Shown here one piece after another: positions 1 to 13,554 of a DNA stretch of 49,837 nt. The number at the start of each line of letters is the position of its first letter. Position 1 is the stretch's first letter. The notes under the pieces are model-generated. The model was not told the origin of the DNA. It ran no database searches and saw only the letters and a list, made by a program, of their open reading frames with translations. Location of the stretch: positions 1 through 49,837 of the IMG/VR virus record IMGVR_UViG_3300013101_000014. The stretch is one strand, 5' to 3'. The position numbers were made by a program, and so were the translations under genes. Origin of the DNA: a virus.

Positions 1-630
1 TACCTTCATGTACTTAAAGCATGTATATCTCCAAACATTACCATAAAGAGTATAGAAGCCATTTCTCTGCTCTCTTCCAATATTCTTCTGAATTACTCAT
101 AAAACCCCTATTTATTTGTATACCTAATACACACTAGACCCTGTTCCCTCTTTATCTTCATACTCCTCCCTAAGCATTACTTAATCAATACCACTTCTCT
201 ACTAATATATTGAATTGGTATTATCTATAAGTAGTTGATATCACTAGGGTCTAACTTCTCTAGGCCTCCTAGACTATGGTATGAGCCCTGCTCACACTGA
301 GCCAGCGGGTTTTTACTCGCAGGATAGAATATGAGATATATCTCGGTTCCCCTACGGTATACGGTTGTGTTCCAGCCCCTAATAGGTTTAGATATGGTTT
401 GAGATAGGTTTAAAACCTGATGTGAGCTGGATGTAGACTGGATAGATACCGATGTTGGACTGTTTCTCTAGGGCCTTTTGGCGTAATTATTAGATGGGAA
501 TGGAGTGTATTGACTCACATTCCATTGATCTATCATCGAAATTGCAACTGCATATCTATGAGTATGTAAGTCGGTAGGTGACCGGCGTAGCAGTGTCACT
601 CCAACCGAGTTAGGGCTGGAGTGAAGCCGA
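1..630. other. Gene-poor left edge
   Basis: No gene of normal length is visible. On the - strand two tiny ORFs have ribosome-site-like leaders: 108-161 (17 codons, behind GGGAGGAGT) and 38-100 (20 codons, behind AGGGG). A weak copy of the two-part promoter motif (ACCAATTC, 10 nt, TAGAGAAG) lies at 194-219 just upstream of them. Around 286-316 the + strand can form an imperfect hairpin followed by five T. I searched both strands for tRNA arms and found no T-arm, so no RNA gene is called. The tiny ORFs are possible at best. Confidence 0.35.
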
Positions 631-632
631 CT
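569..632 (-). terminator. Structured 3' end of the 631-828 gene, with repeat copy A
   Basis: On the - strand an outer 6-bp stem (569-574 with 627-632) encloses a 7-bp hairpin (597-603 with 617-623) and a diverged copy of the 20-nt repeat (581-600). It begins at the stop codon of the upstream gene. There is no clear U tract, so termination is an inference from position and structure. Confidence 0.35.
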
Positions 633-828
633 ATTTTCTAAGCATTTTCATGTGGACTTGATATATCTTTGTGAGCTTGAGTGACTCTTGGAAGGTGATG
701 GACTTCATTGTCCTATTTTGTAAGTCCATCCACCATTGATAGTAGTGTTTGTAGCCAAACCTATTAGCTAGTAGTAACTCATATAAAAAGCTTTCACTGA
801 AATGTGAGTATCTTTCTTTAACTAACAT
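631..828 (-). CDS. Small hypothetical phage protein, 65 aa
   Basis: I do not recognise this protein. It is rich in aromatic residues (FGYKHYYQWW in the middle) and basic towards the C-terminus, with no signal peptide or membrane segment. The ATG is preceded by AGGGGGA at good spacing. Upstream lies a copy of the two-part promoter motif at 852-877, and downstream is the hairpin structure with repeat copy A, so it looks like a single-gene transcription unit. Function cannot be inferred. Confidence 0.7.
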   Translation of the reverse strand: MLVKERYSHFSESFLYELLLANRFGYKHYYQWWMDLQNRTMKSITFQESLKLTKIYQVHMKMLRK

Positions 829-851
829 TGTTCCCCCTTGATAATTGTTTA

Positions 852-877
852 TTAATATACTTAGATATTTAATTGGT
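852..877 (-). promoter_or_regulatory. Two-part promoter motif, copy 1
   Basis: Reads ACCAATTA, 10 nt, TATATTAA on the - strand, with the second box 23 nt upstream of the 828 start. The second box is a poorer match than in the other copies. Confidence 0.5.
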
Positions 878-922
878 TGAATAAAAGAGAGTGAGGACTT
901 TCATCCCCACTCTTTGGGTAGA

Positions 923-1399
923 CTAGTCATTAATTCCTAGTGACTCAAGTAAGTCAGCTGGAATCGCTGTGAAATCTATTTCTACTTGAGCTTTACTCGC
1001 TTTGAGCTTAGCAATCTTAGTTGCTATTATCTCTTCAGCTACTGCTATCTTCTCAGCAGTAAGCCTACCAGACTTGATCAGCAACTTGAGGTTCTTTATT
1101 TCAGGGTCACTACTTCCAGCTCTAAGTCCTGGGTTGGCTGGGACATACTTAACACCTCCATTAAGCTCAGTCGCTTTCCTTAAGTGATTGCTCACCATTC
1201 CCGCTGTGTATTCCCTTACCAGCTTGGGTGTGCTATACTTAGCTTTAGCTTTATCACTAAAGACTGTTTCTTTCTCCAGGATAGAGTGAGTGACTATATC
1301 TATCACTTTCTTTCTATCTTCTGTAGATAAGACATACTTCTTTGTTTGCTTACCACACACACTATAAACTGCATTTATAACTGCTTGACTTTGCTTCAT
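923..1399 (-). CDS. Conserved phage protein of unknown function, 158 aa (paralogue of 3665-4165)
   Basis: Cytoplasmic and basic, starting MKQSQAVINAV. It shares with the 3665-4165 product the motifs FSDKAKAKY, AGMVSNHLRK, LNGGVKY, ANPGLRAGSSDPEIKNLKLL and a C-terminal VEIDFTAIPADLLESLGI. From memory this type of protein occurs in many T4-type and related phages without an assigned role. The start is supported by AAGGGGG upstream. Two copies of the two-part promoter motif precede it, at 1441-1466 and 1491-1516. The two copies in one genome suggest a gene duplicated within the phage. Confidence 0.8.
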   Translation of the reverse strand: MKQSQAVINAVYSVCGKQTKKYVLSTEDRKKVIDIVTHSILEKETVFSDKAKAKYSTPKLVREYTAGMVSNHLRKATELNGGVKYVPANPGLRAGSSDPEIKNLKLLIKSGRLTAEKIAVAEEIIATKIAKLKASKAQVEIDFTAIPADLLESLGIND

Positions 1400-1440
1400 T
1401 AAGCCCCCTTGGGTTTAATATAATAAGCTTTATTGCTTAT

Positions 1441-1466
1441 TATATATATTAATATATTTATTTGGT
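1441..1466 (-). promoter_or_regulatory. Two-part promoter motif, copy 2b (proximal)
   Basis: ACCAAATA, 10 nt, TATATATA on the - strand, 42 nt upstream of the 1399 start. Confidence 0.5.
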
Positions 1467-1490
1467 TTATATATATCTACTTACATTCAT

Positions 1491-1516
1491 TATTTATATT
1501 AATATATATAATTGGT
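1491..1516 (-). promoter_or_regulatory. Two-part promoter motif, copy 2a (distal)
   Basis: ACCAATTA, 10 nt, TATAAATA on the - strand, a perfect match. It lies 9 nt downstream of repeat copy B. Confidence 0.65.
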
Positions 1517-1525
1517 ATTGAGTGG

Positions 1526-1545
1526 GTCCAGCGTAGCAGTGTCAC
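1526..1545 (-). repeat. 20-nt repeat, copy B
   Basis: GTGACACTGCTACGCTGGAC on the - strand, between the hairpin at 1553-1576 and the promoter motif at 1491-1516. Other copies are at 581-600 (diverged), 2494-2513 and 3605-3623. The gap to ACCAA is 9 nt in copies B, C and D alike. Confidence 0.85.
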
Positions 1546-1552
1546 TAATAAA

Positions 1553-1576
1553 GGGGAGAGACTCTCGCCTCTCCCC
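1553..1576 (-). terminator. Intrinsic terminator of the 2391-1588 operon
   Basis: 8-bp GC-rich stem (GGGGAGAG with CTCTCCCC) with an 8-nt loop, followed on the - strand by TTTATTA. It sits 11 nt beyond the stop codon of the last gene of the operon. Confidence 0.75.
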
Positions 1577-1587
1577 TAATGGGGGAA

Positions 1588-1749
1588 TTATCTCATTGTT
1601 TGTTTCTTAACCCCTTTTGCTTGGCGAGTAGGACCTATCTTGATCCACACCTCCTGTCCTTGGACAGTCTCTCTCTTGGCTCCGATAAAACCATTGATTT
1701 GCTTATCGAATATAATAATAGTCGACATCTCTTTCTTTTGTCGCTTCAT
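1588..1749 (-). CDS. Small basic protein, 53 aa
   Basis: Starts MKRQKKEMSTIII and ends GVKKQTMR. It is strongly basic with a hydrophobic centre (TIIIFDKQINGFIGA), and no family is recognised. The ATG has AGGGG at 6-nt spacing. It overlaps the 1703-1870 gene by 47 nt in another frame and is the last gene of the operon before the terminator at 1553-1576. The ribosome site, position and terminator support it despite its size. Confidence 0.55.
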   Translation of the reverse strand: MKRQKKEMSTIIIFDKQINGFIGAKRETVQGQEVWIKIGPTRQAKGVKKQTMR

Positions 1750-1870
1750 TCCTATCCCCTTTATAAGCTTTGGTTTGTCTCTTAACTCTTGCTTCTTGTA
1801 CTCTCTTTAAGGAAGCGAGCATCTCTGCTTGCCTCTCATTTAACTCTTGTAACATCTCTCCTTTGTTCAC
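1703..1870 (-). CDS. Small helical charged protein, 55 aa
   Basis: Probably a single charged helix, with a segment rich in Glu, Arg and Lys (LNERQAEMLASLKRVQEARV), ending VDYYYIR. The GTG at 1870 has a perfect AGGAGG at 1875-1880, though only 4 nt away. An in-frame ATG at 1855 with AAAGGAGAG is the alternative. It follows the 46-aa gene by 15 nt and overlaps the 53-aa gene. Function unknown. Confidence 0.55.
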   Translation of the reverse strand: MNKGEMLQELNERQAEMLASLKRVQEARVKRQTKAYKGDRNEATKERDVDYYYIR

Positions 1871-1885
1871 ATATCCTCCTAGTAT

Positions 1886-2026
1886 CTACATATACTCATG
1901 TATATCTTCAACATCAATCTCCTCATAGGAGAGTCCCATGTTATTGTTAATGTAACTGACTGCATCAAACTTAAACATAAACACAGCAACCACTTCATTA
2001 TTTATGTTGCGGACTAGGTATCTCAC
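1886..2026 (-). CDS. Small acidic protein, 46 aa
   Basis: Starts MRYLVRNINNEVVAVF and ends EEIDVEDIHEYM, with an acidic C-terminal half. The GTG start overlaps the TGA stop of the 2023-2391 gene (GTGA), and AAGG lies just upstream, so translation is probably coupled. No family is recognised. Confidence 0.55.
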   Translation of the reverse strand: MRYLVRNINNEVVAVFMFKFDAVSYINNNMGLSYEEIDVEDIHEYM

Positions 2027-2391
2027 CCCTTCACCACCTTTATTAGATACTCATTCTTAGTTGATCTTTGTAGACTAGTTAACTCATACAACACACCATT
2101 TCTAGTATCATCATCTATATTGTCATGACATCCACATCTACTACTTACTTCACCATCTTTAGTGATATGTATTTCACAAGGTGGACAATCATCATTAGAG
2201 TACAACCAATCATTAGTATACTCTTCAAACCCAGGAACATCCTCAATTAACTCCATAATGGGATGACTTATGTAAGAATAACAATGACCTCCATCCCAAT
2301 CATAGTTAATGTGAGTAGTATTAACTTCCTTATCAAATCTACCTTTAAGAAGTAGAAGTTCTACATCTTTTATTAATTTTTTATCACTCAT
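2023..2391 (-). CDS. Hypothetical acidic protein with a cysteine cluster, 122 aa
   Basis: First gene of a four-gene operon. Acidic, with cysteines at DDCPPCEIH and SRCGCHDN, which could form a metal site (CxxC then CxCH). No domain is recognised. The ATG is preceded by AGGGGGA, and two copies of the two-part promoter motif lie at 2407-2432 and 2459-2484. The next gene starts inside its stop codon. The metal-binding idea is inference only. Confidence 0.75.
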   Translation of the reverse strand: MSDKKLIKDVELLLLKGRFDKEVNTTHINYDWDGGHCYSYISHPIMELIEDVPGFEEYTNDWLYSNDDCPPCEIHITKDGEVSSRCGCHDNIDDDTRNGVLYELTSLQRSTKNEYLIKVVKG

Positions 2392-2406
2392 ATTTATTTC
2401 CCCCTT

Positions 2407-2432
2407 TATTTATATATAAGTATATAATTGGT
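2407..2432 (-). promoter_or_regulatory. Two-part promoter motif, copy 3b (proximal)
   Basis: ACCAATTA, 10 nt, TATAAATA on the - strand, a perfect match, 15 nt upstream of the 2391 start. Confidence 0.65.
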
Positions 2433-2458
2433 ATATATATACTCACACATATGATTAA

Positions 2459-2484
2459 TAATTATATTAATATATATATTTGGT
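2459..2484 (-). promoter_or_regulatory. Two-part promoter motif, copy 3a (distal)
   Basis: ACCAAATA, 10 nt, TATAATTA on the - strand, 9 nt downstream of repeat copy C. Confidence 0.5.
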
Positions 2485-2493
2485 CTATGAGTT

Positions 2494-2513
2494 GTCCAGC
2501 GTAGCAGTGTCAC
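2494..2513 (-). repeat. 20-nt repeat, copy C
   Basis: Identical to copy B over 20 nt. Together with flanking bases (2482-2512) it is identical to copy D (3593-3623) over 31 nt, reaching into the ACC of the promoter motif. Confidence 0.85.
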
Positions 2514-2528
2514 TCCTCTTACGAGGAG
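2513..2528 (-). terminator. Hairpin downstream of the 3261-2540 operon
   Basis: 6-bp stem (CTCCTC with GAGGAG) and a 4-nt loop, 11 nt after the 2540 stop. There is no U tract, as the repeat follows at once, so termination may be weak. Confidence 0.4.
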
Positions 2529-2539
2529 CGACTGATGTG

Positions 2540-2719
2540 TTACTCAATGATACAGAACTGTCCCTTATCTGGCTCACTCTTACTCAACTCTTTACTTGTG
2601 AGTTCACGTATACACTCACCGTTATATACTGACGCATCCTCTTGTGCTTGCTCTTTAGACTCTGCTGGTAGTATGAATGTCTCTCCATCCTCTTGACATA
2701 AAAAGTATCTCTTACTCAT
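2540..2719 (-). CDS. Small acidic protein, 59 aa
   Basis: Starts MSKRYFLCQEDGETFILP and ends KGQFCIIE. The two cysteine-bearing ends flank an acidic, Glu/Ser-rich helix (AESKEQAQEDASVYNG). AGGGGAAT precedes the ATG at good spacing, and it is the third gene of an operon starting at 3261. No family is recognised; the leader and operon position make it a credible gene. Confidence 0.6.
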   Translation of the reverse strand: MSKRYFLCQEDGETFILPAESKEQAQEDASVYNGECIRELTSKELSKSEPDKGQFCIIE

Positions 2720-2744
2720 TTATTCCCCTTTGTTTAGTGTTACT

Positions 2745-2963
2745 CTATGACACAGAGCAGCGTTGCTCTAACCATTTTGGCATTGGTCCTTCGTGGTTAT
2801 TTTTAATGTATGTTATAGTTTCATCTAATACATCTTGTCCTACATTGTCTATGAACTCAAGCAACAACACACGCTTATTAACATGTGATATATTATGTAG
2901 GGCTTGGTAAACCCATGATCCACCCATATAGAAACATATTGCATTTAATGAATCATCACTCAT
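2745..2963 (-). CDS. Hypothetical small protein, 72 aa
   Basis: Starts MSDDSLNAICFYMGGSW. No signal or membrane segment is convincing. The ATG is preceded by AAAGGAGAAT. It is the second gene of the 3261-2540 operon, with short gaps to its neighbours. Function unknown. Confidence 0.7.
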   Translation of the reverse strand: MSDDSLNAICFYMGGSWVYQALHNISHVNKRVLLLEFIDNVGQDVLDETITYIKNNHEGPMPKWLEQRCSVS

Positions 2964-3006
2964 TTATTCTCCTTTGTTATTGTTTATAACATATCTATTC
3001 TGCTTA

Positions 3007-3261
3007 CTAATGGTTAGTTCTGATCTCCTCCCATGCTTCATAGTAACAGTCTATCCATAGGTTATTACTGTCTGCTGGATTGAGTAGTGGGTTGTGTTGT
3101 AACCCTTCATCAACTGCTTTCTGTACTAAGTCCTCATCACCATATATAGTAACGTGGAACATACAAGTCATCACACTACCAGCATGACAGTAACATATGC
3201 AGTCCAACTGTTGCTGTGCTGTTAAGCTGTTCCACACTTTAACTTTCTGTACTGTAGTCAT
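3007..3261 (-). CDS. Hypothetical small protein, 84 aa
   Basis: Starts MTTVQKVKVWNSL and contains a cysteine/histidine patch (CICYCHAG). Weakly acidic C-terminus. The ATG has AAAGGAG at good spacing, and promoter motif copy 4 lies 16 nt further upstream. It is the first gene of a three-gene operon. No family is recognised. Confidence 0.7.
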   Translation of the reverse strand: MTTVQKVKVWNSLTAQQQLDCICYCHAGSVMTCMFHVTIYGDEDLVQKAVDEGLQHNPLLNPADSNNLWIDCYYEAWEEIRTNH

Positions 3262-3277
3262 ATTACTCCTTTGTTAT

Positions 3278-3303
3278 TGTTTATAAATATATATTTAATT
3301 GGT
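3278..3303 (-). promoter_or_regulatory. Two-part promoter motif, copy 4
   Basis: ACCAATTA, 10 nt, TATAAACA on the - strand, 16 nt upstream of the 3261 start and directly downstream of the terminator at 3310-3327. No 20-nt repeat is present here. Confidence 0.6.
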
Positions 3304-3309
3304 ATAAAA

Positions 3310-3327
3310 GGGGAGCAATCGCTCCCC
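3310..3327 (-). terminator. Intrinsic terminator of the 3337-3552 gene
   Basis: Perfect 7-bp stem (GGGGAGC with GCTCCCC), 4-nt loop, followed on the - strand by TTTTAT, 9 nt after the stop codon. Confidence 0.8.
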
Positions 3328-3336
3328 TCTTCTTAC

Positions 3337-3552
3337 TTAGTTGAATCGATTGTTTAACTCTCTCACTAACTCTTGATTGTCAACTAAATAATCATAATCA
3401 TCACAGTTGAAGAAGAATCTGTAACTCCCTTCTAACTTCTCATACAACACATCACTATGAATAACACAGTTGTCTTTAACTAACAACTCACTGTTATCTC
3501 TAATGAACTCAGCAGACTCAGTGAACTGACTCTTCTTTGTGAATGTATTCAT
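3337..3552 (-). CDS. Hypothetical small acidic protein, 71 aa
   Basis: Starts MNTFTKKSQFTESAEF and includes a Phe/Asp-rich centre (FFFNCDDYDYLVDN). Probably cytoplasmic. AAAGGAGAAT precedes the ATG. It is flanked by its own promoter motif (3570-3595) and terminator (3310-3327), so it forms a single-gene unit. Function unknown. Confidence 0.7.
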   Translation of the reverse strand: MNTFTKKSQFTESAEFIRDNSELLVKDNCVIHSDVLYEKLEGSYRFFFNCDDYDYLVDNQELVRELNNRFN

Positions 3553-3569
3553 TCATTCTCCTTTGTTGA

Positions 3570-3595
3570 TTGTTATATATAATTATATAATTGGT
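3570..3595 (-). promoter_or_regulatory. Two-part promoter motif, copy 5
   Basis: ACCAATTA, 10 nt, TATAACAA on the - strand, 17 nt upstream of the 3552 start and 9 nt downstream of repeat copy D. Confidence 0.55.
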
Positions 3596-3604
3596 CTATG
3601 AGTT

Positions 3605-3623
3605 GTCCAGCGTAGCAGTGTCA
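3605..3623 (-). repeat. 20-nt repeat, copy D
   Basis: TGACACTGCTACGCTGGAC on the - strand, between the terminator at 3636-3657 and the promoter motif at 3570-3595. It shares a 31-nt identity with the copy C region. Confidence 0.85.
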
Positions 3624-3635
3624 ATTAATATAAAA

Positions 3636-3657
3636 GGGGTGAGCGCGAGCTCACCCC
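3636..3657 (-). terminator. Intrinsic terminator of the 3665-4165 gene
   Basis: Perfect 9-bp stem (GGGGTGAGC with GCTCACCCC) and 4-nt loop, followed on the - strand by TTTTATATT, 7 nt after the stop codon. This is the strongest terminator in the left arm. Confidence 0.85.
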
Positions 3658-3664
3658 CAATCAA

Positions 3665-4165
3665 TCACTCGCTGATGCCTAAGCTCTTGAGCAAGTCAGC
3701 TGGAATCGCTGTGAAGTCTACCTCTACTTTGTTCTTAGTAGAGAGTTCAGCTTTGCGCTCATCAATCCTTGCTTGCGCTATCACTACCTTATCTGCAGGT
3801 AGTTTGCCACTCGCTATCAGGAGTTTGAGATTCTTGATCTCAGGGTCACCACTCCCTGCTCTTATCCCTGGGTTCGCTATTTTATGCTTAACCCCTCCAT
3901 TGAACCGCTCATCCTTGCGATACCAGTTGCTCACCATACCAGGAGTATAATCCTTTCTAATTATCTCCTCAGTATGATATTTCTTCCTCGCCTTATCACT
4001 GAAGGCTGCTTCACCGGAGTGTAAGAGTGCAGACACTAACATAATCACCTGCTTTCTAAACTCGGTTGTCATCACACTCAAGATGTTGGTTCTATCTTCG
4101 AACTTAACACCGGCTTCCTTCAACACTGCATGTGTCGCTTTGTAAACTGCATCACTTTGCTTCAT
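3665..4165 (-). CDS. Conserved phage protein of unknown function, 166 aa (paralogue of 923-1399)
   Basis: Starts MKQSDAVYKATHAVL. It shares FSDKARKKY, PGMVSNWYRK, FNGGVKH, ANPGIRAGSGDPEIKNLKLL and the C-terminal VDFTAIPADLLKSLGI with the 923-1399 product. Its middle is slightly longer. The ATG has AAGGGGGAT upstream and lies inside the end of a 33-aa ORF, so translation may be coupled. Regulation is probably from promoter motifs at 4274-4299 and 4336-4361. Confidence 0.8.
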   Translation of the reverse strand: MKQSDAVYKATHAVLKEAGVKFEDRTNILSVMTTEFRKQVIMLVSALLHSGEAAFSDKARKKYHTEEIIRKDYTPGMVSNWYRKDERFNGGVKHKIANPGIRAGSGDPEIKNLKLLIASGKLPADKVVIAQARIDERKAELSTKNKVEVDFTAIPADLLKSLGISE

Positions 4166-4253
4166 AATCCCCCTTGTAAAAGTTGTTAATTATTTGTTGT
4201 TTTGTTATTGTATTATTTGAGTTGGTAAATAATTCAACCAACCATTTATACAT
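4152..4253 (-). CDS. Possible leader peptide or micro-protein, 33 aa
   Basis: Starts MYKWLVELFTNSNNT and ends NFYKGDYEAK. The ATG at 4253 is preceded by AAGGAGGAGTG, one of the best ribosome sites in the region but close (2 to 4 nt). The ORF runs 14 nt into the 3665-4165 gene, so its ribosomes would cross that gene's ribosome site. It could couple or tune expression of the downstream gene, or be a short protein in its own right. A weak promoter-motif copy (4201-4226) lies within it. Confidence 0.45.
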   Translation of the reverse strand: MYKWLVELFTNSNNTITKQQIINNFYKGDYEAK

Positions 4254-4273
4254 CACTCCTCCTTGTTAGTTAT

Positions 4274-4299
4274 TATTTATAAATATATATATAATTGGT
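4274..4299 (-). promoter_or_regulatory. Two-part promoter motif, copy 6a
   Basis: ACCAATTA, 10 nt, TATAAATA on the - strand, a perfect match, 20 nt upstream of the 4253 start. Confidence 0.65.
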
Positions 4300-4335
4300 A
4301 TTAAAACTAATAATTATATAATTTAATCTACTTAA

Positions 4336-4361
4336 TATTTATAAATAATTATAGAGTTGGT
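4336..4361 (-). promoter_or_regulatory. Two-part promoter motif, copy 6b
   Basis: ACCAACTC, 10 nt, TATAAATA on the - strand, at the left border of the GC-rich island. Confidence 0.55.
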
Positions 4362-4530
4362 ATAAAAACGGCCCGCTAACCTTGAAAAAAACAAGGAAGC
4401 TTCGAGTTGGTACTGGTACTATCGGCCCGCACGCTCTGACGGGAGCATTTTTGCATTTCGTTGCGGTTCACACAAGGGCCCGCGGCCTTCCACCCGGGAG
4501 GGGAAACGCAAGTACCACTACTTGCTCACA
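4362..4530. other. GC-rich intergenic island with hairpins
   Basis: No gene is visible. The block is much richer in G and C than its surroundings and carries CGGCCCGC twice (4369-4376, 4433-4440) plus a related GGGCCCGCGG (4476-4485). Hairpins include CCTTG/CAAGG around seven A (4380-4396), a 6-bp stem at 4486-4501 and a perfect 7-bp stem at 4508-4525. It separates the array (4535-7423) from the left operons. It could be a structured RNA, a terminator region or a replication site; none is proven. Confidence 0.5.
4508..4525 (-). terminator. Hairpin after the small-gene array
   Basis: GCAAGTA and TACTTGC form a perfect 7-bp stem with a 4-nt loop, 10 nt beyond the stop of the last array gene. 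The - strand continues GTTTCCCC, a poor U tract. Confidence 0.45.
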
Positions 4531-4534
4531 TTCC

Positions 4535-4711
4535 TTATAAATATAACTTTATGTATTCTTTATGATTACTATCTGGCATCAGGCGCATTACACCTATCTT
4601 ATCTAGGAGTCGCAAGAAGTCCATCTCTATATGGTCGCCGGCATTATACGTATCACACGACAACCTGAAGTATGGAACTCGTTCAGCTATTTTCACGCCC
4701 GGCGGTATCAT
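4535..4711 (-). CDS. Array micro-protein, 58 aa, last in the array
   Basis: Starts MIPPGVKIAERVPYF and carries the array pattern as HIEMDFLRLLDKIGVMRL, a hydrophobic helix ending Leu-Leu-x-Lys-Ile. The ATG overlaps the TGA of the preceding gene (ATGA), so it is probably translated by coupling. Function unknown. The pattern is shared with its neighbours 4950-5084, 5044-5205 and others. Confidence 0.6.
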   Translation of the reverse strand: MIPPGVKIAERVPYFRLSCDTYNAGDHIEMDFLRLLDKIGVMRLMPDSNHKEYIKLYL

Positions 4712-4953
4712 ATGTTCTTCCTGATCCTACGCATAACTTCACCGAAGTAACTAGGGTACTTGTGCCCAACAAGGATATCAGCCAACAAATGGGCGAAGGC
4801 CCACATAATGATTGCCTCATTCCCAGTGAGTCGCTTGTATTTCTGTTCCAACTTCACAACAGGATCTGACTCCCAAGGGTGGACACTAGAAGCCTTGTTG
4901 TTGTTGACAACACCCCATGCATTCCACATATGTTTGTTAGGTGGTGCGCTCAT
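4708..4953 (-). CDS. Array micro-protein, 81 aa, KYPxYF subtype
   Basis: Clear paralogue of the 5510-5803 product. Both have a WESDP/WENHESP stretch, then LEQKYKRLTG/IEKHKKFTG, then a hydrophobic helix ending in LLADILVGHKYPSYF or LLGRILIKNKYPDYF. The start overlaps the stop of 4950-5084 (ATGA) and its own stop overlaps the next start. Function unknown. The KYPxYF ending sets this subtype apart within the array. Confidence 0.65.
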   Translation of the reverse strand: MSAPPNKHMWNAWGVVNNNKASSVHPWESDPVVKLEQKYKRLTGNEAIIMWAFAHLLADILVGHKYPSYFGEVMRRIRKNI

Positions 4954-5084
4954 AGCAGTCCACCCATCCTTCTAAGGTTCAGTATTACATTCACCCACTC
5001 CGTGTGAGTCAAACACCTAATCTTCCTAAGTAGTGATATTAATTCACTCGCAATCGCATAATCTTCGATATCTATTATCGCCAT
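4950..5084 (-). CDS. Array micro-protein, 44 aa
   Basis: Starts MAIIDIEDYAIASEL and continues ISLLRKIRCL, the array pattern, ending NLRRMGGLL. AAGGAGGAGT directly before the ATG is an excellent ribosome site. It overlaps the end of 5044-5205 by 41 nt in another frame and ends in an ATGA overlap with the next gene. Function unknown. Confidence 0.6.
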   Translation of the reverse strand: MAIIDIEDYAIASELISLLRKIRCLTHTEWVNVILNLRRMGGLL

Positions 5085-5205
5085 ACTCCTCCTTCTGACT
5101 GAATAAGGACACCTTTAAGGATACAACCTCTTCGATGTTGATAGCACCTATCTTACGCAGTATATTTAAGAGTGGGAAGACAATGTTTAAATCTACAGTA
5201 GTCAT
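5044..5205 (-). CDS. Array micro-protein, 53 aa
   Basis: Starts MTTVDLNIVFPLLNILRKIG, placing the array helix at the N-terminus. It ends with a charged tail (SQKEEYGDNRYRRLCDCE). The ATG overlaps the TGA of the 44-aa gene upstream and follows GAGGGG. A longer reading from an upstream ATG (5247) is possible but would overlap that gene. Function unknown. Confidence 0.6.
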   Translation of the reverse strand: MTTVDLNIVFPLLNILRKIGAINIEEVVSLKVSLFSQKEEYGDNRYRRLCDCE

Positions 5206-5336
5206 ATACCCCTCGTCTGAATACAAGCCGCATTCCATGCCCACCATTGCAAAGGCACCACGCCCATTTTGCGCAATAAGTAGAGCATCCCCAAAGCAGC
5301 TTCGGCTTGCTCATCATCCCAATCACGTATCGCCAC
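5202..5336 (-). CDS. Array micro-protein, 44 aa
   Basis: Starts MAIRDWDDEQAEAALGMLY and continues LLRKMGVVPL, the array pattern, then a Trp-rich tail. The GTG start has GGAGG with 7-nt spacing. It overlaps the end of 5323-5508 in another frame and its stop overlaps the next start (ATGA). The longer ORF in another frame here (5153-5350) reads as non-protein-like and lacks the pattern, so I prefer this one. Confidence 0.6.
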   Translation of the reverse strand: MAIRDWDDEQAEAALGMLYLLRKMGVVPLQWWAWNAACIQTRGI

Positions 5337-5508
5337 GGCGGTACCTCCAAGGTATATACACTGTGAGTTGAATCCCTTCAAAGTCTTCAGTTTCCCAACG
5401 TAACACTTTTGTAATCAACTCTGCGAACTCCCATATACTATCTTGAGTGTCAGGATGCACATGGTCTTGGTCTTCGAAGGTTCTATATACGTAGTGTATG
5501 AAGTTCAT
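5323..5508 (-). CDS. Array micro-protein, 61 aa, VLRW subtype
   Basis: Clear paralogue of 6128-6292. Both carry WEF, a hydrophobic run, VLRW, then a strand-like end (LTVYIPWRY or VTLHIPERF). I start at ATG 5508 (MNFIHYVYRTFEDQ) because it sits just after the stop of 5510-5803 with GGAG upstream. An upstream ATG at 5532 overlaps the previous gene and is less likely. Function unknown. Confidence 0.6.
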   Translation of the reverse strand: MNFIHYVYRTFEDQDHVHPDTQDSIWEFAELITKVLRWETEDFEGIQLTVYIPWRYRRGDT

Positions 5509-5509
5509 T

Positions 5510-5803
5510 CTATCTCTTCTCCATCGCTGCAAAGTAATCAGGGTACTTATTCTTGATTAAGATCCGACCTAGTAAGTATACAAAATTAGATATGTCGGTT
5601 GTTCCATAGTGTGGGCGACCAGTAAACTTCTTATGCTTCTCTATTAGGCGAATGAGTGGAGACTCATGGTTTTCCCACTTCCACATGTTCAAGCTGCTAG
5701 CATTTAAAGCAACATACTTAAGTGTATCGTTTAGTGACTCAATGGTGACCGCACCACCTTTTGTTAAATCCACCTGTGTTCCCTTCCATGTATCATCACT
5801 CAT
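5510..5803 (-). CDS. Array micro-protein, 97 aa, KYPxYF subtype
   Basis: Paralogue of 4708-4953 (see the shared KHKKFTG and LLGRILIKNKYPDYF motifs). It is the largest product of the array, with an N-terminal stretch (TWKGTQVDLTKGGAV) missing from its paralogue. I choose ATG 5803, 8 nt inside the previous gene and preceded by GGAG. ATG 5815 is the alternative. Function unknown. Confidence 0.65.
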   Translation of the reverse strand: MSDDTWKGTQVDLTKGGAVTIESLNDTLKYVALNASSLNMWKWENHESPLIRLIEKHKKFTGRPHYGTTDISNFVYLLGRILIKNKYPDYFAAMEKR

Positions 5804-5996
5804 TGGCATCTCCAAAGAAATTCGTTATATTCGTATAGAGCACACCATCGTATAGCTTTTCATAGCTTTTATTTAAGTGTGCTTTGTTGAGGCCCATTCT
5901 GTTCAGTAAGAATAGAAGACTGCGTATTACACCCCTGTCTTCTAAATAATACCTATTAAATATTAAGTTATTTTGCTTTGGCGTTGATCCATTCAT
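5796..5996 (-). CDS. Array micro-protein, 66 aa
   Basis: Carries LEDRGVIRSLLFLLNRMGL, matching the array pattern at about residues 18 to 36. It starts 29 nt inside the preceding gene with only a weak AAAGAG upstream, so coupling is likely. It ends 8 nt inside the next gene. Function unknown. Confidence 0.55.
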   Translation of the reverse strand: MNGSTPKQNNLIFNRYYLEDRGVIRSLLFLLNRMGLNKAHLNKSYEKLYDGVLYTNITNFFGDANE

Positions 5997-6123
5997 TTAT
6001 AAACTCTTTATCATCTAAGCCAAATAGACCTATATGTCCAAGTACAGCAAATTTTGTTAACACATCCATCTTACTTAAAACAGATAAGAGGCCCACTATT
6101 ATTAATTTATCTTCTGTAGTCAT
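5968..6123 (-). CDS. Array micro-protein, 51 aa
   Basis: Starts MTTEDKLIIVGLLSVLSKMD, with the array helix at the very N-terminus, then FGLDDKEFINEW towards the end. The ATG lies 4 nt after the preceding stop with a weak AAAG, which fits re-initiation. Function unknown; the pattern match and tight packing support it. Confidence 0.55.
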   Translation of the reverse strand: MTTEDKLIIVGLLSVLSKMDVLTKFAVLGHIGLFGLDDKEFINEWINAKAK

Positions 6124-6127
6124 ATCT

Positions 6128-6292
6128 TTATTCTACAAACCTCTCAGGAATATGAAGTGTGACGACATCTAGCGATGCAACTCTTTCACATTTCCATCGC
6201 AACACCCTTATAATCATAAACTCCCAGAATTTCCCATACCGGTCACTTTGCATTTGTAAGATCTTATTAAATGATATAGGCTTATGATGCAT
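6128..6292 (-). CDS. Array micro-protein, 54 aa, VLRW subtype
   Basis: Starts MHHKPISFNKILQM. It contains KFWEFMIIRVLRW and VTLHIPERF, aligning with SIWEFAELITKVLRW and LTVYIPWRY of 5323-5508. Upstream is a 48-nt spacer with a GC-rich GGGGGCCC block (6311-6328), the largest gap in the array. The ribosome site is weak (AAGGTG, more than 10 nt away). Function unknown. Confidence 0.55.
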   Translation of the reverse strand: MHHKPISFNKILQMQSDRYGKFWEFMIIRVLRWKCERVASLDVVTLHIPERFVE

Positions 6293-6340
6293 AATTTTCA
6301 CTTACACCTTCGGGGGCCCTTTTAGGGGGTAAAACAACTA

Positions 6341-6592
6341 TTACATCCACCTGTTCAACCCTTGGACCTCAACGTAAGTAGGACAATTATTTGGTACACC
6401 CACTATACCACTTATGTTAAACATTGATGCCATTGGGGATAAAGTAACTGAACACACCTTGACATGTTCAAGGCTGCATGCCTTATTTAAAAGAATAGCT
6501 AAAAATGATACAATAAGCTGGCGTGACTCTTCAGGGATCGCACTGCTACTTGATAATACATATGCGCCATTGTGTGTTTTATAAATATTCAT
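6341..6592 (-). CDS. Array micro-protein, 83 aa
   Basis: Carries IPEESRQLIVSFLAILLNKA, the array pattern, near residues 19 to 38. The C-terminal half (VKVCSVTLSPMASMFNISG) looks like beta strands. Its start overlaps the end of 6589-6816 by 4 nt. AAAAGGG precedes the ATG. Function unknown. Confidence 0.6.
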   Translation of the reverse strand: MNIYKTHNGAYVLSSSSAIPEESRQLIVSFLAILLNKACSLEHVKVCSVTLSPMASMFNISGIVGVPNNCPTYVEVQGLNRWM

Positions 6593-6816
6593 AAATTCGC
6601 CCTTTTCATTAGTCTCATTGCTAGATTAAGAACCCAATTGTCATCTTCTATTTCCATCTTTGGATGAAGCTTAGCCATTAGAATTAGGAACTCTGTTATG
6701 GCTATAACCTCTGCATGATGATATCTATATGTATATTCAGTCTCATCCATTTCCCAATAAATATCCTCTGCCTCAGCTACAGAAATCCCACTTTTAGATC
6801 TTATATATGGTTTCAT
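6589..6816 (-). CDS. Array micro-protein, 75 aa
   Basis: Acidic N-terminal half (AEAEDIYWEMDETEYTY) followed by HAEVIAITEFLILMAKLH, the array pattern, and a basic end (MRLMKRANL). The ATG overlaps the preceding stop (ATGA). Function unknown. Confidence 0.6.
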   Translation of the reverse strand: MKPYIRSKSGISVAEAEDIYWEMDETEYTYRYHHAEVIAITEFLILMAKLHPKMEIEDDNWVLNLAMRLMKRANL

Positions 6817-7031
6817 ATCTTTTTAAATGCTTTCTCTATAGCCTTATATGAATCCGGTGATACGTATAATTTATCAGGAGTGCCAAGGTTGTGCAATATC
6901 TCATCCATGCCGAAACGTATTTTGAATCCGGCATGTGTTGCTACAGAGACACAATGGATGCGCTCAAGAAGATTTATAAAATCCATTATTGCTATGTCTT
7001 CTTCTACGGAGAAGAACTTAGGCCAAGCCAT
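6813..7031 (-). CDS. Array micro-protein, 72 aa
   Basis: Starts MAWPKFFSVEEDIAIMDF and continues INLLERIHCV, the array pattern, then a predicted mixed domain ending KAIEKAFKKI. It begins 14 nt inside the preceding gene. Function unknown. Confidence 0.6.
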   Translation of the reverse strand: MAWPKFFSVEEDIAIMDFINLLERIHCVSVATHAGFKIRFGMDEILHNLGTPDKLYVSPDSYKAIEKAFKKI

Positions 7032-7239
7032 CTAGTTTCTTCTTTTCATATTTCTTCATAACGTCTCCCCAAACTAATATTATTTTGTACTCATCACGAC
7101 TTGAGTCATAATGCCTTTCTACACCAAATCTACCATACTCTGTTGGAGAGCTTCTATGCTCTGGACAAAAAAGAGAACATACGACAATAAGGAACTTCCT
7201 TATCATATCTACCTCACTTCTTGTATATAGTTTTTTCAT
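7018..7239 (-). CDS. Array micro-protein, 73 aa
   Basis: Contains YTRSEVDMIRKFLIVVCSLF, a looser form of the array pattern, then a strand-rich end (YKIILVWGDVMKKYEKKK). I start at ATG 7239, with AGAGGTAGGT upstream; GTG 7242 is one codon longer. It overlaps 7214-7423 by 26 nt. Function unknown. Confidence 0.6.
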   Translation of the reverse strand: MKKLYTRSEVDMIRKFLIVVCSLFCPEHRSSPTEYGRFGVERHYDSSRDEYKIILVWGDVMKKYEKKKLDGLA

Positions 7240-7423
7240 CACCTACCTCTAGTATTGAATTAAGACCCTGATACTGTGGAGATGGTGAAGGGTGTGAACC
7301 TACAAACCCTTGCTCAATAGCTTTTAGTAAGCCATTTATGCCGACCATATCATCTATAAACTTCTTCTCACAGACTCTTCCTAATAATTTTATAAATTCA
7401 CGTTTTATTGTTATATCAACCAT
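7214..7423 (-). CDS. Array micro-protein, 69 aa, first of the array
   Basis: Starts MVDITIKREFIKLLGRVC, the array pattern at the N-terminus, then FIDDMVGINGLLKAIEQG. There is no ribosome site. The ATG sits 6 nt after TATAAT (7430-7435), which predicts a transcript starting at or next to the ATG. It heads the 15-gene run down to 4535. Function unknown. Confidence 0.65.
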   Translation of the reverse strand: MVDITIKREFIKLLGRVCEKKFIDDMVGINGLLKAIEQGFVGSHPSPSPQYQGLNSILEVGDEKTIYKK

Positions 7424-7429
7424 AGGTAT

Positions 7430-7435
7430 ATTATA
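7430..7435 (-). promoter_or_regulatory. Promoter -10 box of the small-gene array
   Basis: CGTATAAT on the - strand, exactly 6 nt upstream of the 7423 ATG, with no TTGACA-like -35. It is divergent from the + strand promoter at 7457-7462. Confidence 0.55.
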
Positions 7436-7456
7436 CGATCTGTATTAAAAATAAGG

Positions 7457-7462
7457 TATAAC
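7457..7462 (+). promoter_or_regulatory. Promoter -10 box of the 7469 gene
   Basis: GGTATAAC, exactly 6 nt upstream of the 7469 ATG. No ribosome site lies between. Confidence 0.5.
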
Positions 7463-7468
7463 TACATT

Positions 7469-7747
7469 ATGGATGTTGTAGTTTGGACAGGTATCACTTT
7501 TGGGGTTATTGCTCTATCATTAATTATGTACATGTGTAGAGAGGCCTACTACACATGGAAAGTAGTTACTAAAATAAGAGCACACGCCAAGGCAATAACC
7601 GACGTTAATAAAAAAGTAACATCTATTAAAGACTTTACACTACTGATGTGTAAACTTAAATTAATGAAGTATGAAAATGCCTGGTTAGTAGAAGTGAACT
7701 ACTTAAGCAAGGCTCAAGTTAAAATTGATAATATTAGAAAAATTTAA
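7469..7747 (+). CDS. Small single-pass membrane protein, 92 aa
   Basis: The only + strand gene of the left 8.8 kb. Residues 4 to 23 (VVWTGITFGVIALSLIMYMC) form a clear membrane helix, followed by a basic, probably cytoplasmic or periplasmic helical domain (TWKVVTKIRAHAKAITDVNKK). One N-terminal membrane helix and a charged tail would fit a spanin-like, holin-associated or superinfection protein, but no signature decides this. It converges with 7744-8007, overlapping by 4 nt. The start lies 6 nt after a -10 box. Confidence 0.6.
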   Translation: MDVVVWTGITFGVIALSLIMYMCREAYYTWKVVTKIRAHAKAITDVNKKVTSIKDFTLLMCKLKLMKYENAWLVEVNYLSKAQVKIDNIRKI

Positions 7748-8007
7748 ACCCCAATATTAAAATTACATATCTCATACGGATGATAAGGGTCTATCCCTAC
7801 TGCCAATGTTAACGCAACAATTGTATTAGCCTCTTTAATACCTATTCTTAACAATAAGCAAGAAAAGAGAGCAATATTATTTCTGTGGAGGGAGGGTAAC
7901 CATAGGCCATTCAGCTTTGAGTCTCTCTTTATTGATTGTATCCAAGTGCTTCTGGAATCTTGTTCTAGAGATGTTTCTCCACCCTGTTCCAAGGAGTTTG
8001 ACTTCAT
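7744..8007 (-). CDS. Array-like micro-protein with an overprinted N-terminus, 87 aa
   Basis: The last 48 residues (LHRNNIALFSCLLLRIGI onward) match the array pattern. The first part, from ATG 8007 behind AAGGGTG with 6-nt spacing, lies in another frame over the end of 7877-8215 for 131 nt. If this start is right, one stretch of DNA encodes two proteins. No in-frame ATG or GTG exists after the upstream stop; a TTG near 7855 is the only short alternative. Confidence 0.45.
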   Translation of the reverse strand: MKSNSLEQGGETSLEQDSRSTWIQSIKRDSKLNGLWLPSLHRNNIALFSCLLLRIGIKEANTIVALTLAVGIDPYHPYEICNFNIGV

Positions 8008-8215
8008 AGATTTCACCCTTTGTATGCTTTATCGTCGTATTGTCCGCTTTCGCCTGCTCTTTGTTTATTTTTTTAAAATAACCGCGTCTATCATTCACGT
8101 CGCATAACACCTCAATAAAAGTATTATTTTTTTCTTCTTCCGTGTCTAAGAACCGCATTCGCAATAATCTGGCCACCTGTGTCTCCTTTGTGTATTGGTA
8201 CGCTATAATGCTCAT
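7877..8215 (-). CDS. Hypothetical protein, 112 aa
   Basis: Basic, mixed alpha/beta, with a protein-like central part (TFIEVLCDVNDRRGYFKK, GEIYEVKLLGTGWRN). No family is recognised. The ATG at 8215 has AGGAA nearby, but the first 92 nt overlap the 8124-8300 gene in another frame; an in-frame ATG at 8158 would reduce this. Its 3' part overlaps 7744-8007. Confidence 0.6.
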   Translation of the reverse strand: MSIIAYQYTKETQVARLLRMRFLDTEEEKNNTFIEVLCDVNDRRGYFKKINKEQAKADNTTIKHTKGEIYEVKLLGTGWRNISRTRFQKHLDTINKERLKAEWPMVTLPPQK

Positions 8216-8300
8216 GGAGTTTCATTCCTAGAATCTTATCCCACAGCAATACAATAAATTTGGTTTTTACCACAAAACCGTAATCTCTAATCTTATTCAT
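8124..8300 (-). CDS. Small basic protein, 58 aa, probably leaderless
   Basis: Starts MNKIRDYGFVVKTKFIVLLW and ends VLRHGRRKK. The ATG lies 6 nt after TATAAC (8307-8312) with no ribosome site, the same arrangement as at 7423 and 7469. It overlaps the start of 7877-8215 and carries that gene's ribosome site within it. No family is recognised. Confidence 0.5.
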   Translation of the reverse strand: MNKIRDYGFVVKTKFIVLLWDKILGMKLHEHYSVPIHKGDTGGQIIANAVLRHGRRKK

Positions 8301-8306
8301 AGATAG

Positions 8307-8312
8307 GTTATA
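8307..8312 (-). promoter_or_regulatory. Promoter -10 box of the 8300-7744 unit
   Basis: CGTATAAC on the - strand, exactly 6 nt upstream of the 8300 ATG. Confidence 0.5.
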
Positions 8313-8323
8313 CGTTTTATATT

Positions 8324-8575
8324 TTAAGCTAGGTCTTCGCTATTTTTCATACTACGAAAGGATTCGACTCCAGAAGTGGAATCTATAAGGGCATTGTGTG
8401 TTAACACGTCTAAGGCCATTTCTAATCTTTGGTTTTGAGTTGGTGGCTTGGGATTTAAGAATTCAGGTAAGCACTGCGATTTAAAAGGACAAATAATGCA
8501 ACGAGTAGAATTCATGCATTTTCCATCCACGCTTACAATCTCTTCTAAAGTTTTTTCATCAATACTTGCTAACAT
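8324..8575 (-). CDS. Cysteine-motif protein, 83 aa (tandem paralogue)
   Basis: Carries VDGKCMNSTRCIICPFKSQC, a spaced C, CxxCP, C motif that could bind zinc or an iron-sulphur cluster. The upstream neighbour has the same motif, so they look like tandem duplicates. I start at ATG 8575 (MLASIDEKTLEEI), just after the stop of 8577-8819; GTG 8599 would overlap that gene. Function unknown. Confidence 0.6.
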   Translation of the reverse strand: MLASIDEKTLEEIVSVDGKCMNSTRCIICPFKSQCLPEFLNPKPPTQNQRLEMALDVLTHNALIDSTSGVESFRSMKNSEDLA

Positions 8576-8576
8576 A

Positions 8577-8819
8577 TTAAAGTAGGTACTCCTCAACACT
8601 AATATCTAATAATAATCTCATTGCAATATCTTTATACCTTGCATCGGCATCGTCCTCAGTTTCTCCGTCAATTCGCACAACTTCGGCACAACTCTTATAA
8701 GTGCCATCTTTTCGCTTTTTTAGCTTACTAAGCGGGCACTGCTCACATATTGTTGGATTACTCCAGCAGCAATTGCCCTCTTTATCTATTATTTTCTGTA
8801 ATATGTCTTTCTTATCCAT
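8577..8819 (-). CDS. Cysteine-motif protein, 80 aa (tandem paralogue)
   Basis: Carries EGNCCWSNPTICEQCPL and a later KSC, aligning with the motif in 8324-8575 (Gly, Cys, then CxxCP, then Cys). The rest is a helical acidic domain (GETEDDADARYKD). ATG 8828 lies inside the -10 box, so I prefer ATG 8819, 7 nt after TATAAT. Metal binding is inferred from the cysteines alone. Confidence 0.6.
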   Translation of the reverse strand: MDKKDILQKIIDKEGNCCWSNPTICEQCPLSKLKKRKDGTYKSCAEVVRIDGETEDDADARYKDIAMRLLLDISVEEYLL

Positions 8820-8826
8820 CTCATCC

Positions 8827-8832
8827 ATTATA
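8827..8832 (-). promoter_or_regulatory. Promoter -10 box of the 8819-8324 unit
   Basis: TATAAT on the - strand, 7 nt upstream of the 8819 ATG, back to back with the + strand promoter at 8873-8878. Confidence 0.4.
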
Positions 8833-8872
8833 TTATCGTATTGGTTTCAATTAAACTTATTATATCGTGCGG

Positions 8873-8878
8873 TATAAT
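8873..8878 (+). promoter_or_regulatory. Promoter -10 box at the head of the tail module
   Basis: GCGGTATAAT, 18 nt upstream of the 8897 start. No -35 match. Resembles the box at 37438-37443. Confidence 0.5.
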
Positions 8879-8896
8879 AAGCTTATAGGAGTTTTT

Positions 8897-9700
8897 ATGG
8901 CTAATATGAAAAAACCAGATGGATTGTTGGCACCCTCGAGTAGATCCACCCCATCTCCATTCCCCGATATACTTTCTGATGTAAGCATCAAAGGTAATCC
9001 ATTTGATCAGCAACTCAAAAATAGAGGTATTAGGCTGATACACAGGAGAGCTACTCTCTGTCCAAATATAAACAATATAGATGACAACACCCATGACCCA
9101 AGATGTAAGATCTGCGATGGAAGTGGGATATTTAGATATGAAGAGAAAGAGATAGTAGGCGTGTTTCAAGGAAACTCGCTGCAACGTCTGTTTGAGCAAC
9201 AGGGTATCTGGGAAATTGGCACTGCTACAGTCACACTGCCTACCCAATACGAGGACGGAACACAGGCCGACTTCAATACCTTTGATCACCTCATCATTCC
9301 TGATTATGAAATTAGAACGTGGGAGCTTAAGGGGTTTGAGCCTAGAGCCAATAATCGCCAAGCTGTCAGATATCCAATAACAAGCATTGACCATATGTCA
9401 TCAGTTGAGAATGGAGTGCTTAAGATATATACAGCGGGTGTAGACTTCAACATAGTAGATGGCGAAATTGAGTGGATAAGTGGTCAAGAGCCACCATATG
9501 ATAGTATTAATGAGAGAGGAACAGTCTTAACTATTAGTTATTTCTGTAATCCAGTCTATTCTGTCCTACAGAGTATGCGTGAACTTAGGGTTACGCAAGA
9601 ATATGTAGATGGCCAAAAAGTGGCTCGCAGACTACCGCAAGAAGTGTTAGTAAAAAGGGATTTCTTAGTTAATCCAGCTGAGAAACTCGCTGGAAGTTGA
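8897..9700 (+). CDS. Putative neck or virion structural protein with a Cys motif, 267 aa
   Basis: First gene of the + strand structural module. Residues 55 to 73 hold a possible zinc site (CPN at 55, CKIC at 70 to 73, with H66). The rest looks like beta-rich structural domains (DFNTFDHLIIPDYEIR, IYTAGVDFNIVDGEIEW). The start at MANMKKPDG has TAGGAG 6 nt away; an ATG 30 nt upstream overlaps the promoter. A head-tail joining role is inferred from being upstream of the sheath. Confidence 0.6.
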   Translation: MANMKKPDGLLAPSSRSTPSPFPDILSDVSIKGNPFDQQLKNRGIRLIHRRATLCPNINNIDDNTHDPRCKICDGSGIFRYEEKEIVGVFQGNSLQRLFEQQGIWEIGTATVTLPTQYEDGTQADFNTFDHLIIPDYEIRTWELKGFEPRANNRQAVRYPITSIDHMSSVENGVLKIYTAGVDFNIVDGEIEWISGQEPPYDSINERGTVLTISYFCNPVYSVLQSMRELRVTQEYVDGQKVARRLPQEVLVKRDFLVNPAEKLAGS

Positions 9701-9758: not shown

Positions 9759-10313
9759 GTGCAGCAAAAGAATATAAAAGGCAGAATTTGCTATAGAGAC
9801 AACTGTTCTTTATGTAATAAAGACAGAGGTTTTGTACCTAAAGCAAGATTGGGCAAAAAATGTAAATCTTGCTCAGGTAGGTTAAATAAACTAGGAACAA
9901 CCTCTTCTAGAAAAGGCGTTAAGACTGGTAAGCCAGCTCACAATCGTGGTAAGTATTTTGACAACCCACTTAAGAAAAAGATTAGAAATAGGATGTCACG
10001 GAGAATGAGACATGCATTGAGTGGGCGAAATTTAAGTAAAAAATGGATTCATATCTTTAATATAGTTGGGTATTCTGTAGAGGATCTTCAAAAACATCTA
10101 GAGACTCGATTTCAGTCTGGCATGACTTGGGATAATATAGGCGAGTGGCATATAGATCACATAATTCCAGAGAGTAGTTTCAACTATAGTTCAACAGCTG
10201 ACGAATTATTCACTCAATGCTGGTCATTAGATAATCTCCAACCCCTATGGGCAAAAGATAATCTTAGTAAAGGTAGTAAATTACTAGGGGGTGTATCATT
10301 CCAAAACCAGTAA
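9759..10313 (+). CDS. HNH endonuclease, 184 aa
   Basis: A probable free-standing homing endonuclease. An N-terminal zinc-ribbon-like pair (CSLC at 16 to 19, CKSC at 35 to 38) is followed by a basic linker (LKKKIRNRMSRRMRHAL) and an HNH core, WHIDHIIP near residues 130 to 137 with CWSLDNLQPLWAKDN at 154 to 168. GTG start, TAGGAG 8 nt upstream. It sits alone between two structural genes with its own promoter-like box, and its 3' end overlaps the likely start region of the next gene, which suggests insertion. Confidence 0.85.
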   Translation: MQQKNIKGRICYRDNCSLCNKDRGFVPKARLGKKCKSCSGRLNKLGTTSSRKGVKTGKPAHNRGKYFDNPLKKKIRNRMSRRMRHALSGRNLSKKWIHIFNIVGYSVEDLQKHLETRFQSGMTWDNIGEWHIDHIIPESSFNYSSTADELFTQCWSLDNLQPLWAKDNLSKGSKLLGGVSFQNQ

Positions 10314-13526: not shown

Positions 13527-13554
13527 TGTGAGTGGATTGGCTCCAAAGTTGTGA

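Follow-up and report, generated by a model that had tools for sequence, protein, structure and literature searches.

Among the described phage promoters closest to those considered here, the T4 late promoters are those of the gp55 sigma factor, the T4 middle (MotA) promoters have an upstream box in place of the −35 element at a set distance from the next box, and the PeSL cassettes of the T-even phages place a terminator hairpin and then an early promoter before each small gene. The T4 late promoter sequence is given as TATAAATA in a published account (PMC5259590), and one on phiEco32 (PMC8948821) describes promoters of the sigma factor gp36 that consist of a single element, tAATGTAtA, with no −35, served by a sigma without region 4 and the host core RNA polymerase. 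Here, we analyze IMGVR_UViG_3300013101_000014, a virus record of 49,837 bases (all of it referred to below as the window), which codes for a contractile tail on the plus strand and features a block of small genes at its left end, all on the minus strand. These small genes are preceded by copies of a two-box element which, on the aligned sequences, is an A/T-rich form of a 24-bp element of roughly [A/C/T]C[C/A]GAYYC[G/T]ATA-n-n-TA-n-n-YRTRA. We consider it probable that the sites are promoters of a small-gene arm, read by the host core RNA polymerase with a start in YRTRA.

The likeness to phiEco32 lies in the single element without a −35 and in the region-4-less sigma that some of the relatives studied here encode. 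However, the element is a different one, it marks the small-gene arm rather than the middle and late genes, and the sigma resembles RpoD, has regions 1.2, 2 and 3 and is missing from the window itself. In common with the T4 late promoters, the window's second box has the TATAAATA octamer and some relatives have a region-4-less sigma, but here this box would lie over the start site, reads YRTRA among the relatives and belongs to the non-structural arm. As in the T4 middle promoters, an upstream box stands at a set distance from the next box; here, it sits directly on a −10-like part. The hairpin followed by a promoter ahead of small genes recalls the PeSL cassettes, to which an exact 14-mer conserved over distant lineages is added here. 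What we describe are, in the favored account, phage-specific promoters that the host polymerase reads, preceded by an unusual 14-mer not found in print: a literature search with the 14-mer and core sequences found no relevant paper.

Two-box sites before the small genes

A search of positions 852–4361 with the pattern ACCAAWWA-N10-TATAAATA, allowing up to three mismatches, matched nine minus-strand sites, three of them perfectly, six with at most one mismatch and eight with at most two. An initial annotation of this DNA had proposed at least eight such sites with exactly 10 nt between the boxes, and the nine counted lie beyond anything seen in 1000 dinucleotide shuffles of positions 801–4400, which failed to reach the observed number at every threshold (at up to three mismatches, mean 0.59 and maximum 4). 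Shuffling the A/T-rich intergenic blocks alone, the comparison by which the annotation proposed that the motif might fail, gave a mean of 1.31 and a maximum of 6, and never 9. Further, TATA occurs at the identical offset in all nine sites, whereas in 2000 shuffles of the downstream 40 nt at most six sites shared an offset. Other features noted by eye also stood: the second box is a perfect TATAAATA in four of the nine (sites 1491, 2407, 4274 and 4336), and in the five start-proximal copies the end of box 2 is separated from the start codon by 15, 16, 17, 20 and 23 nt, the range of 15 to 23 nt given earlier. On the plus strand of the window, including its tail genes, no copy was found at one mismatch or fewer, as had been claimed, and the extra matches at two to three mismatches are at chance level. 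Three copies share a 58-nt repeat (1487–1544, 2455–2512 and 3566–3623), and the nine sites are therefore not fully independent. The intergenic DNA of the window is A/T-rich and partly repeated, which would favor a chance pairing of the boxes; the 1000 local shuffles, together with the strict strand bias in relatives set out below, refute this explanation, and we regard its probability as practically negligible.

On direct reading, the minus-strand unit runs in the order gene, hairpin, sometimes a 14-mer (TGACACTGCTACGC), element, ribosome site and gene, with terminator-like hairpins upstream of several copies. The copy at 852–877 precedes the gene at 631–828, has a predicted RNA start at about 858 and lies downstream of a hairpin at 888–913. 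A tandem pair precedes the gene at 923–1399, with a proximal copy at 1441–1466 and a distal copy at 1491–1516, the latter 14 nt past the 14-mer at 1531–1544, which itself follows a hairpin at 1552–1577. A second pair consists of a proximal copy at 2407–2432 before the gene at 2023–2391, with its ribosome site abutting TATAAATA, and a distal copy at 2459–2484, 14 nt past the 14-mer at 2499–2512. The copy at 3278–3303, before the gene at 3007–3261, has no 14-mer and comes immediately past a terminator hairpin (3309–3328) that, on direct reading, has its T tail on the minus strand. The copy at 3570–3595, before the gene at 3337–3552, is 14 nt past the 14-mer at 3610–3623, upstream of which is a hairpin at 3635–3658. 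The last pair (proximal 4274–4299, distal 4336–4361) precedes a short open reading frame (ORF; 4152–4253) and the gene at 3665–4165. All these copies and 14-mers, and the hairpins at 888–913, 1552–1577 and 3635–3658, are on the minus strand, as are a weak tenth copy at 194–219 (ACCAATTC, with a poor second box) and a 14-mer at 585–598, the last in the array, which no element follows.

A 24-bp element conserved among relatives

An ACCAA-type motif searched for in 15 relatives yielded a single match with three mismatches. The conservation of the element was at first missed because this motif is absent as such, and was seen once the 14-mer had been noticed: exact, clustered copies of TGACACTGCTACGC are present in five of 16 records (including the window) obtained by fetching distant relatives by protein similarity. 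Scanning viral contigs with this sequence then gave at least 118 stretches. Expectation maximization (EM) on the 70 nt following 85 copies of the 14-mer from 31 loci (our selection took loci holding at least two copies, together with a few from the same contigs that hold one) returned one motif, ACCGATtCTATATATA, assigned after 79 of the 85. The window's ACCAATTATATA is an A/T-rich member of this motif, its conserved part of ACCAA joined to ATATA corresponding to the CCGAYYC[G/T]ATA of the relatives.

Counting from the A of ACCAA as position 1, which places the window's second box at positions 19–26, we computed column frequencies from 107 aligned cores weighted by source. Upstream, C2 and A5 are at 100%, G4 at 94% and C8 at 78%, followed by G or T at position 9; the −10-like columns are A10 (99%), T11 (80%) and A12 (69%), and then T15 and A16; and in box 2 they are Y19 (88%), R20 (85%), T21 (64%), R22 (80%) and A23 (75%). 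Positions 9–14 in the window read TATATA, TATAAT, AATATA and others. Thus, the alignment indicates that the second box is kept in position among relatives, but as YRTRA, with TATAA being the window's version. Columns −8 to 0 upstream of the core carry at most 0.27 bits, as in a single element without a −35, and a scan of positions 1–9500 for sigma70-type −35/−10 pairs (TTGACA 16–18 nt before TATAAT) found 31 against 35.0 expected.

In the near-complete relative G016 (166.6 kb), the structural arm and a small-gene arm occupy opposite strands. EM on the sequences upstream of its 145 small-gene-arm genes, with the 14-mer unused, recovered AACCGATTCG, whereas EM on its structural arm gave no such motif; CCGATTCGA occurs in this genome 15 times, in all cases on the small-gene-arm strand. 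We then applied a leave-one-lineage-out model to G016, G017, G001 and the window. At 15 bits or more, matches in the sense of the small-gene arm numbered 16, 4, 10 and 2, respectively, with none in all four genomes antisense in that arm or on either strand of the structural arm. At 13 bits, the structural arms of G016 and G001 have two exceptions each, and in the window no match of 11 bits or more lies in the sense direction of the structural arm.

A held-out set was drawn from 71 loci fetched by a neighboring protein family alone, of which 20 loci on 19 contigs were previously unseen, some being near-copies of each other (e.g., L293/L295 and L300/L301). At 13 bits or more, these 20 loci contain 62 cores in sense and none in antisense, with 15 loci having at least one, and [TC]GACACTGCTACGC is present in 11 of them, always in sense. 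A model of positions 1–14 (box 1) alone found 70 distinct sense matches versus two antisense; among the 70, YRTRA is at positions 19–23 in 17 and at any other offset in at most four, and Y19R20 is present in 46. Conservation, strand bias and spacing were all computed directly. These patterns suggest that the element marks the small-gene arm of two-armed genomes and is oriented with its genes. The view that the sites are promoter-like, two-part and fixed in spacing, and that their regulon is distinct from the structural genes, therefore extends from the window to its relatives: the spacing is conserved in the held-out sites and, at 15 bits or more, the element is seen only in the sense orientation of the small-gene arm.

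Probable start point and candidate reading factors

The position of the ribosome site, likewise a direct computation, bounds the RNA start. A clear ribosome site is present at 65 of the 107 sites of the first set and its first base never comes before position 20 (positions 20–27 in 22 of the 65 and 20–30 in 27). In the held-out set, where 32 of 70 sites have one, the minimum is again 20 (four times), with 17 of the 32 at 20–28, and at window site 2432 AAGGGGG follows immediately after TATAAATA. From this bound, and with YR being the usual bacterial initiator, RNA most likely begins at the YR of the second box (positions 19–20), and TATAAATA would be the start region rather than a −10 box of the T4 type. 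The ribosome-site bound therefore leads us to place the −10-like part at positions 9–14, where the ATATA joined to ACCAA is the more likely −10, with A10 as the −11 base.

The initial annotation had equated TATAAATA with the T4 late promoter box. A related geometry would take TATAAATA as the −10, ACCAATTA as a fixed activator box near −30, where the MotA box is positioned, and a start 5–8 nt past TATAAATA. The identical offset of TATA in all nine window sites speaks for such an arrangement, as do the conserved fixed spacing and a box 2 reading TATAAT in some relatives (the L289, L300 and L301 cores). However, a start at positions 31–34 is disfavored because it would cut the ribosome site in the many copies where it begins at or just after position 20. 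Moreover, box 2 is degenerate in the relatives (YRTRA) as against the near-invariant A10, and the structural-arm promoters of these phages are of the extended −10 form TGnTATAAT and not TATAAATA. We accordingly abandon the T4 late identification and consider the T4-like geometry unlikely. Three other readings were dropped by eye against consensus sequences: an archaeal TATA box, on the distance to the start codon and ribosome site; a sigma54 promoter, with a spacing one base short; and a sigma28-like −10 (GCCGATAA), with TAAA absent at the expected distance.

The conserved 24 bp might alternatively act chiefly as an operator, or as a signal at the RNA 5′ end, that overlaps a promoter, rather than as a polymerase contact. 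Consistent with this, conservation extends past the presumed start to +2 to +4 and a small protein family adjoins the element in the records examined. Nevertheless, the strongest columns, C2, A5 and A10, precede every position at which RNA could start, A10/T11/A12 have −10 character, and copies lacking box 2 still directly precede ribosome sites, which together render this explanation improbable.

We infer the start point, polymerase, activator and timing from the sequence, and the favored account of the element as a promoter would run as follows. The small-gene arm is probably early and concerned with host takeover, and its promoters would be these elements, read by the host core RNA polymerase. 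The box CC[G/A]AYYC at positions 2–8 would lie at about −18 to −12, and the −10-like [G/T]ATAWN at positions 9–14, with no −35 seen; the YR start at 19/20 would fall inside the conserved YRTRA, with the window's TATAAATA thus being the start region. An activator bound at the upstream TGACACTGCTACGC would sit on the same face of the DNA. Where a lineage encodes an RpoD-like, region-4-less sigma of its own (about one in three), this may be the factor that reads the element; in the others a host sigma may do so with the aid of a phage activator.

The length of 23–24 bp, the CGACTC core and the conserved start are also reminiscent of T7-type promoters. Together with core forms such as CCCGACTCTATATA and the conservation of the whole element, this similarity could point to an unrecognized phage-encoded polymerase. 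Yet no T7-like RNA polymerase (PF00940) was detected in 11 records, against a T7 positive control matching at 1e-110, and no multisubunit (beta-prime-like) polymerase in 12 records, with 14 of 14 controls positive; nor does the small-gene arm of G016 have an ORF above 600 aa. On this basis, the T7-type promoter reading was rejected and any phage polymerase appears very unlikely, leaving the host core polymerase as the likely enzyme.

The sigma searches covered region 2, region 4 and the family of alignment A3. An RpoD-like sigma is present in 10 of 36 records, with none in the window, G001 or G017; the latter two nonetheless carry the element. In five phage sigmas that were scanned, regions 1.2, 2 and 3 are present and region 4 is absent, and all seven distinct sigmas with inspected ends (L172, in which the sigma of G016 lies at 1420–2106, L173, L174, L175, L023, L134 and L154), as well as the protein of Myxococcus phage Mx1, stop in region 4.1. 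A search for a separate region-4 protein gave three half-domain matches, all under the cut-off. Such a sigma would suit promoters without a −35, as with phiEco32 gp36 (PMC8948821). Position 9 is G in eight of nine sigma-bearing records and T in seven of eight large sigma-less ones (Fisher test, P 0.003, or 0.03 with records of identical cores merged, in both cases ignoring phylogeny). This table omits 3300019487_23 (no sigma search) and G046 (weak region-2 match), giving 1G/7T instead of 1G/9T; three of its eight sigma-less records (G018 aside) have cores that duplicate, or nearly duplicate, those of another record, and the G044 and G045 group was searched with PF04542 only. The association is a correlation only. 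Other sigma region 2-like stretches occur at G016 158178–158570, G018 114339–114515 and G042 129331–129555, one of them near the end of a 503-aa protein.

The region-4-less sigma could equally read the structural-arm promoters. Intergenic TGnTATAAT extended −10 sequences with no good −35 are found in the structural arms of G016, G017 and G001 and at window position 13552, and hence in both sigma-bearing and sigma-less kinds. EM on the structural arms gave no clear motif, and TGnTATAAT was found by reading the gaps and then counted; in the G016 structural arm it is not strand-specific (14 sense, 11 antisense), with only the intergenic copies being suggestive.

Several observations weigh against the favored account of the element as a small-gene-arm promoter starting in box 2. 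YRTRA is conserved beyond what is usual for a start region, and the window's second box, with TATA in all nine sites, is stricter than that account requires. Six of the 85 14-mers have no core, including last array copies (window 598, L011 660 and L019 243). Of the 20 held-out loci, five are without a core at 13 bits and nine lack [TC]GACACTGCTACGC; two antisense matches reach 13 bits in G017, and EM on the small-gene arms of G001 and G017 returned no such motif, though the model matched there. Finally, the sites are related by descent and the counts are not independent.

More tentatively, the element might belong to a class of promoter not described before, which would span 24 bp from about −19 to +5 with no −35 and would combine an enhancer-like, exactly conserved 14-mer at one-turn steps (about 6, 14 or 25 bp) with the host polymerase assisted by a region-4-less phage sigma or a phage activator, possibly the 'NQKxAVY' protein described below. 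The element offers a tested sequence rule for finding the candidate takeover-gene regulon in a large group of uncultured myoviruses, and a case of a promoter, its spacing and a possible activator site evolving together over many lineages. A phage sigma that keeps RpoD regions 1.2–3 without region 4 would also be a natural test of the purpose of −35 recognition.

The upstream 14-mer, accompanying proteins and genome setting

Distances from the 14-mer to the core at 77 sites cluster at 5–7, 12–17 and 24–28 nt, with a period-10 resultant of 0.49 (0.46 if a distance that recurs within a locus is counted once) that none of 2000 smoothed null draws matched. This helical phasing suggests that a bound protein sits on the same side of the helix; hence, TGACACTGCTACGC is probably an activator site. 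Hairpins just upstream of the 14-mers have a mean z of −2.0, with 48 of 87 below −1.5 versus 15 of 85 in the control, which fits a terminator of the preceding gene. A rival view is that the 14-mer alone is a 3′-end signal. In its favor, CCCTAGAG[A/G]AAC occurs in non-coding DNA 57–127 nt past a 14-mer in the window, G016 and L228, and in the window and G016 these 14-mers have no core. This sequence, at window 475 (minus strand), L058 2480 and L228 14297, may belong to a non-coding RNA. GACACTGCT, noted also in the window at 24752, 29825 and 39095 (minus strand), is among the most over-represented 9–10-mers in G001 (L194–L202), G016 and G017; apart from the 14-mers between genes, there is a coding form, GACACTGCTTCG, with copies on either strand. 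AGCTGGACCG occurs ten times in G016 140248–159034 (minus strand), partly in 84-nt steps, and looks like a coding repeat.

The 'NQKxAVY' family (alignment A4), with proteins of about 150–190 aa often present in several copies per genome, is the small family that adjoins the element. In the window it is represented on the minus strand by the genes at 3665–4165 and 923–1399, whose products are 55% identical. Comparison of the family with Pfam, PHROGs and PDB gave nothing convincing, and the small-gene block had no convincing match in PHROGs and Pfam.

On the plus strand, the window codes for a tail sheath (13600–15795) and a baseplate protein. By tail sheath, the closest named phage is Myxococcus phage Mx1 (34% identity over 81%), and the element-bearing genomes are apparently a large, undescribed group of myoviruses. 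Two bacterial metagenome-assembled genome contigs with the element, labeled Cytophagales and Oligoflexales, are possibly mis-binned phage DNA. A GC-rich non-coding stretch at 4366–4520 showed nothing special on folding (z 0.15). The adjoining minus-strand region at 4535–8828 and L009 3900–9500 are alike in style, each being a long series of tiny single-strand ORFs. In the head gene region of the window, an endonuclease VII-like ORF lies beside a protein with a Nudix-like domain (9759–10313 and 10325–11821, plus strand).

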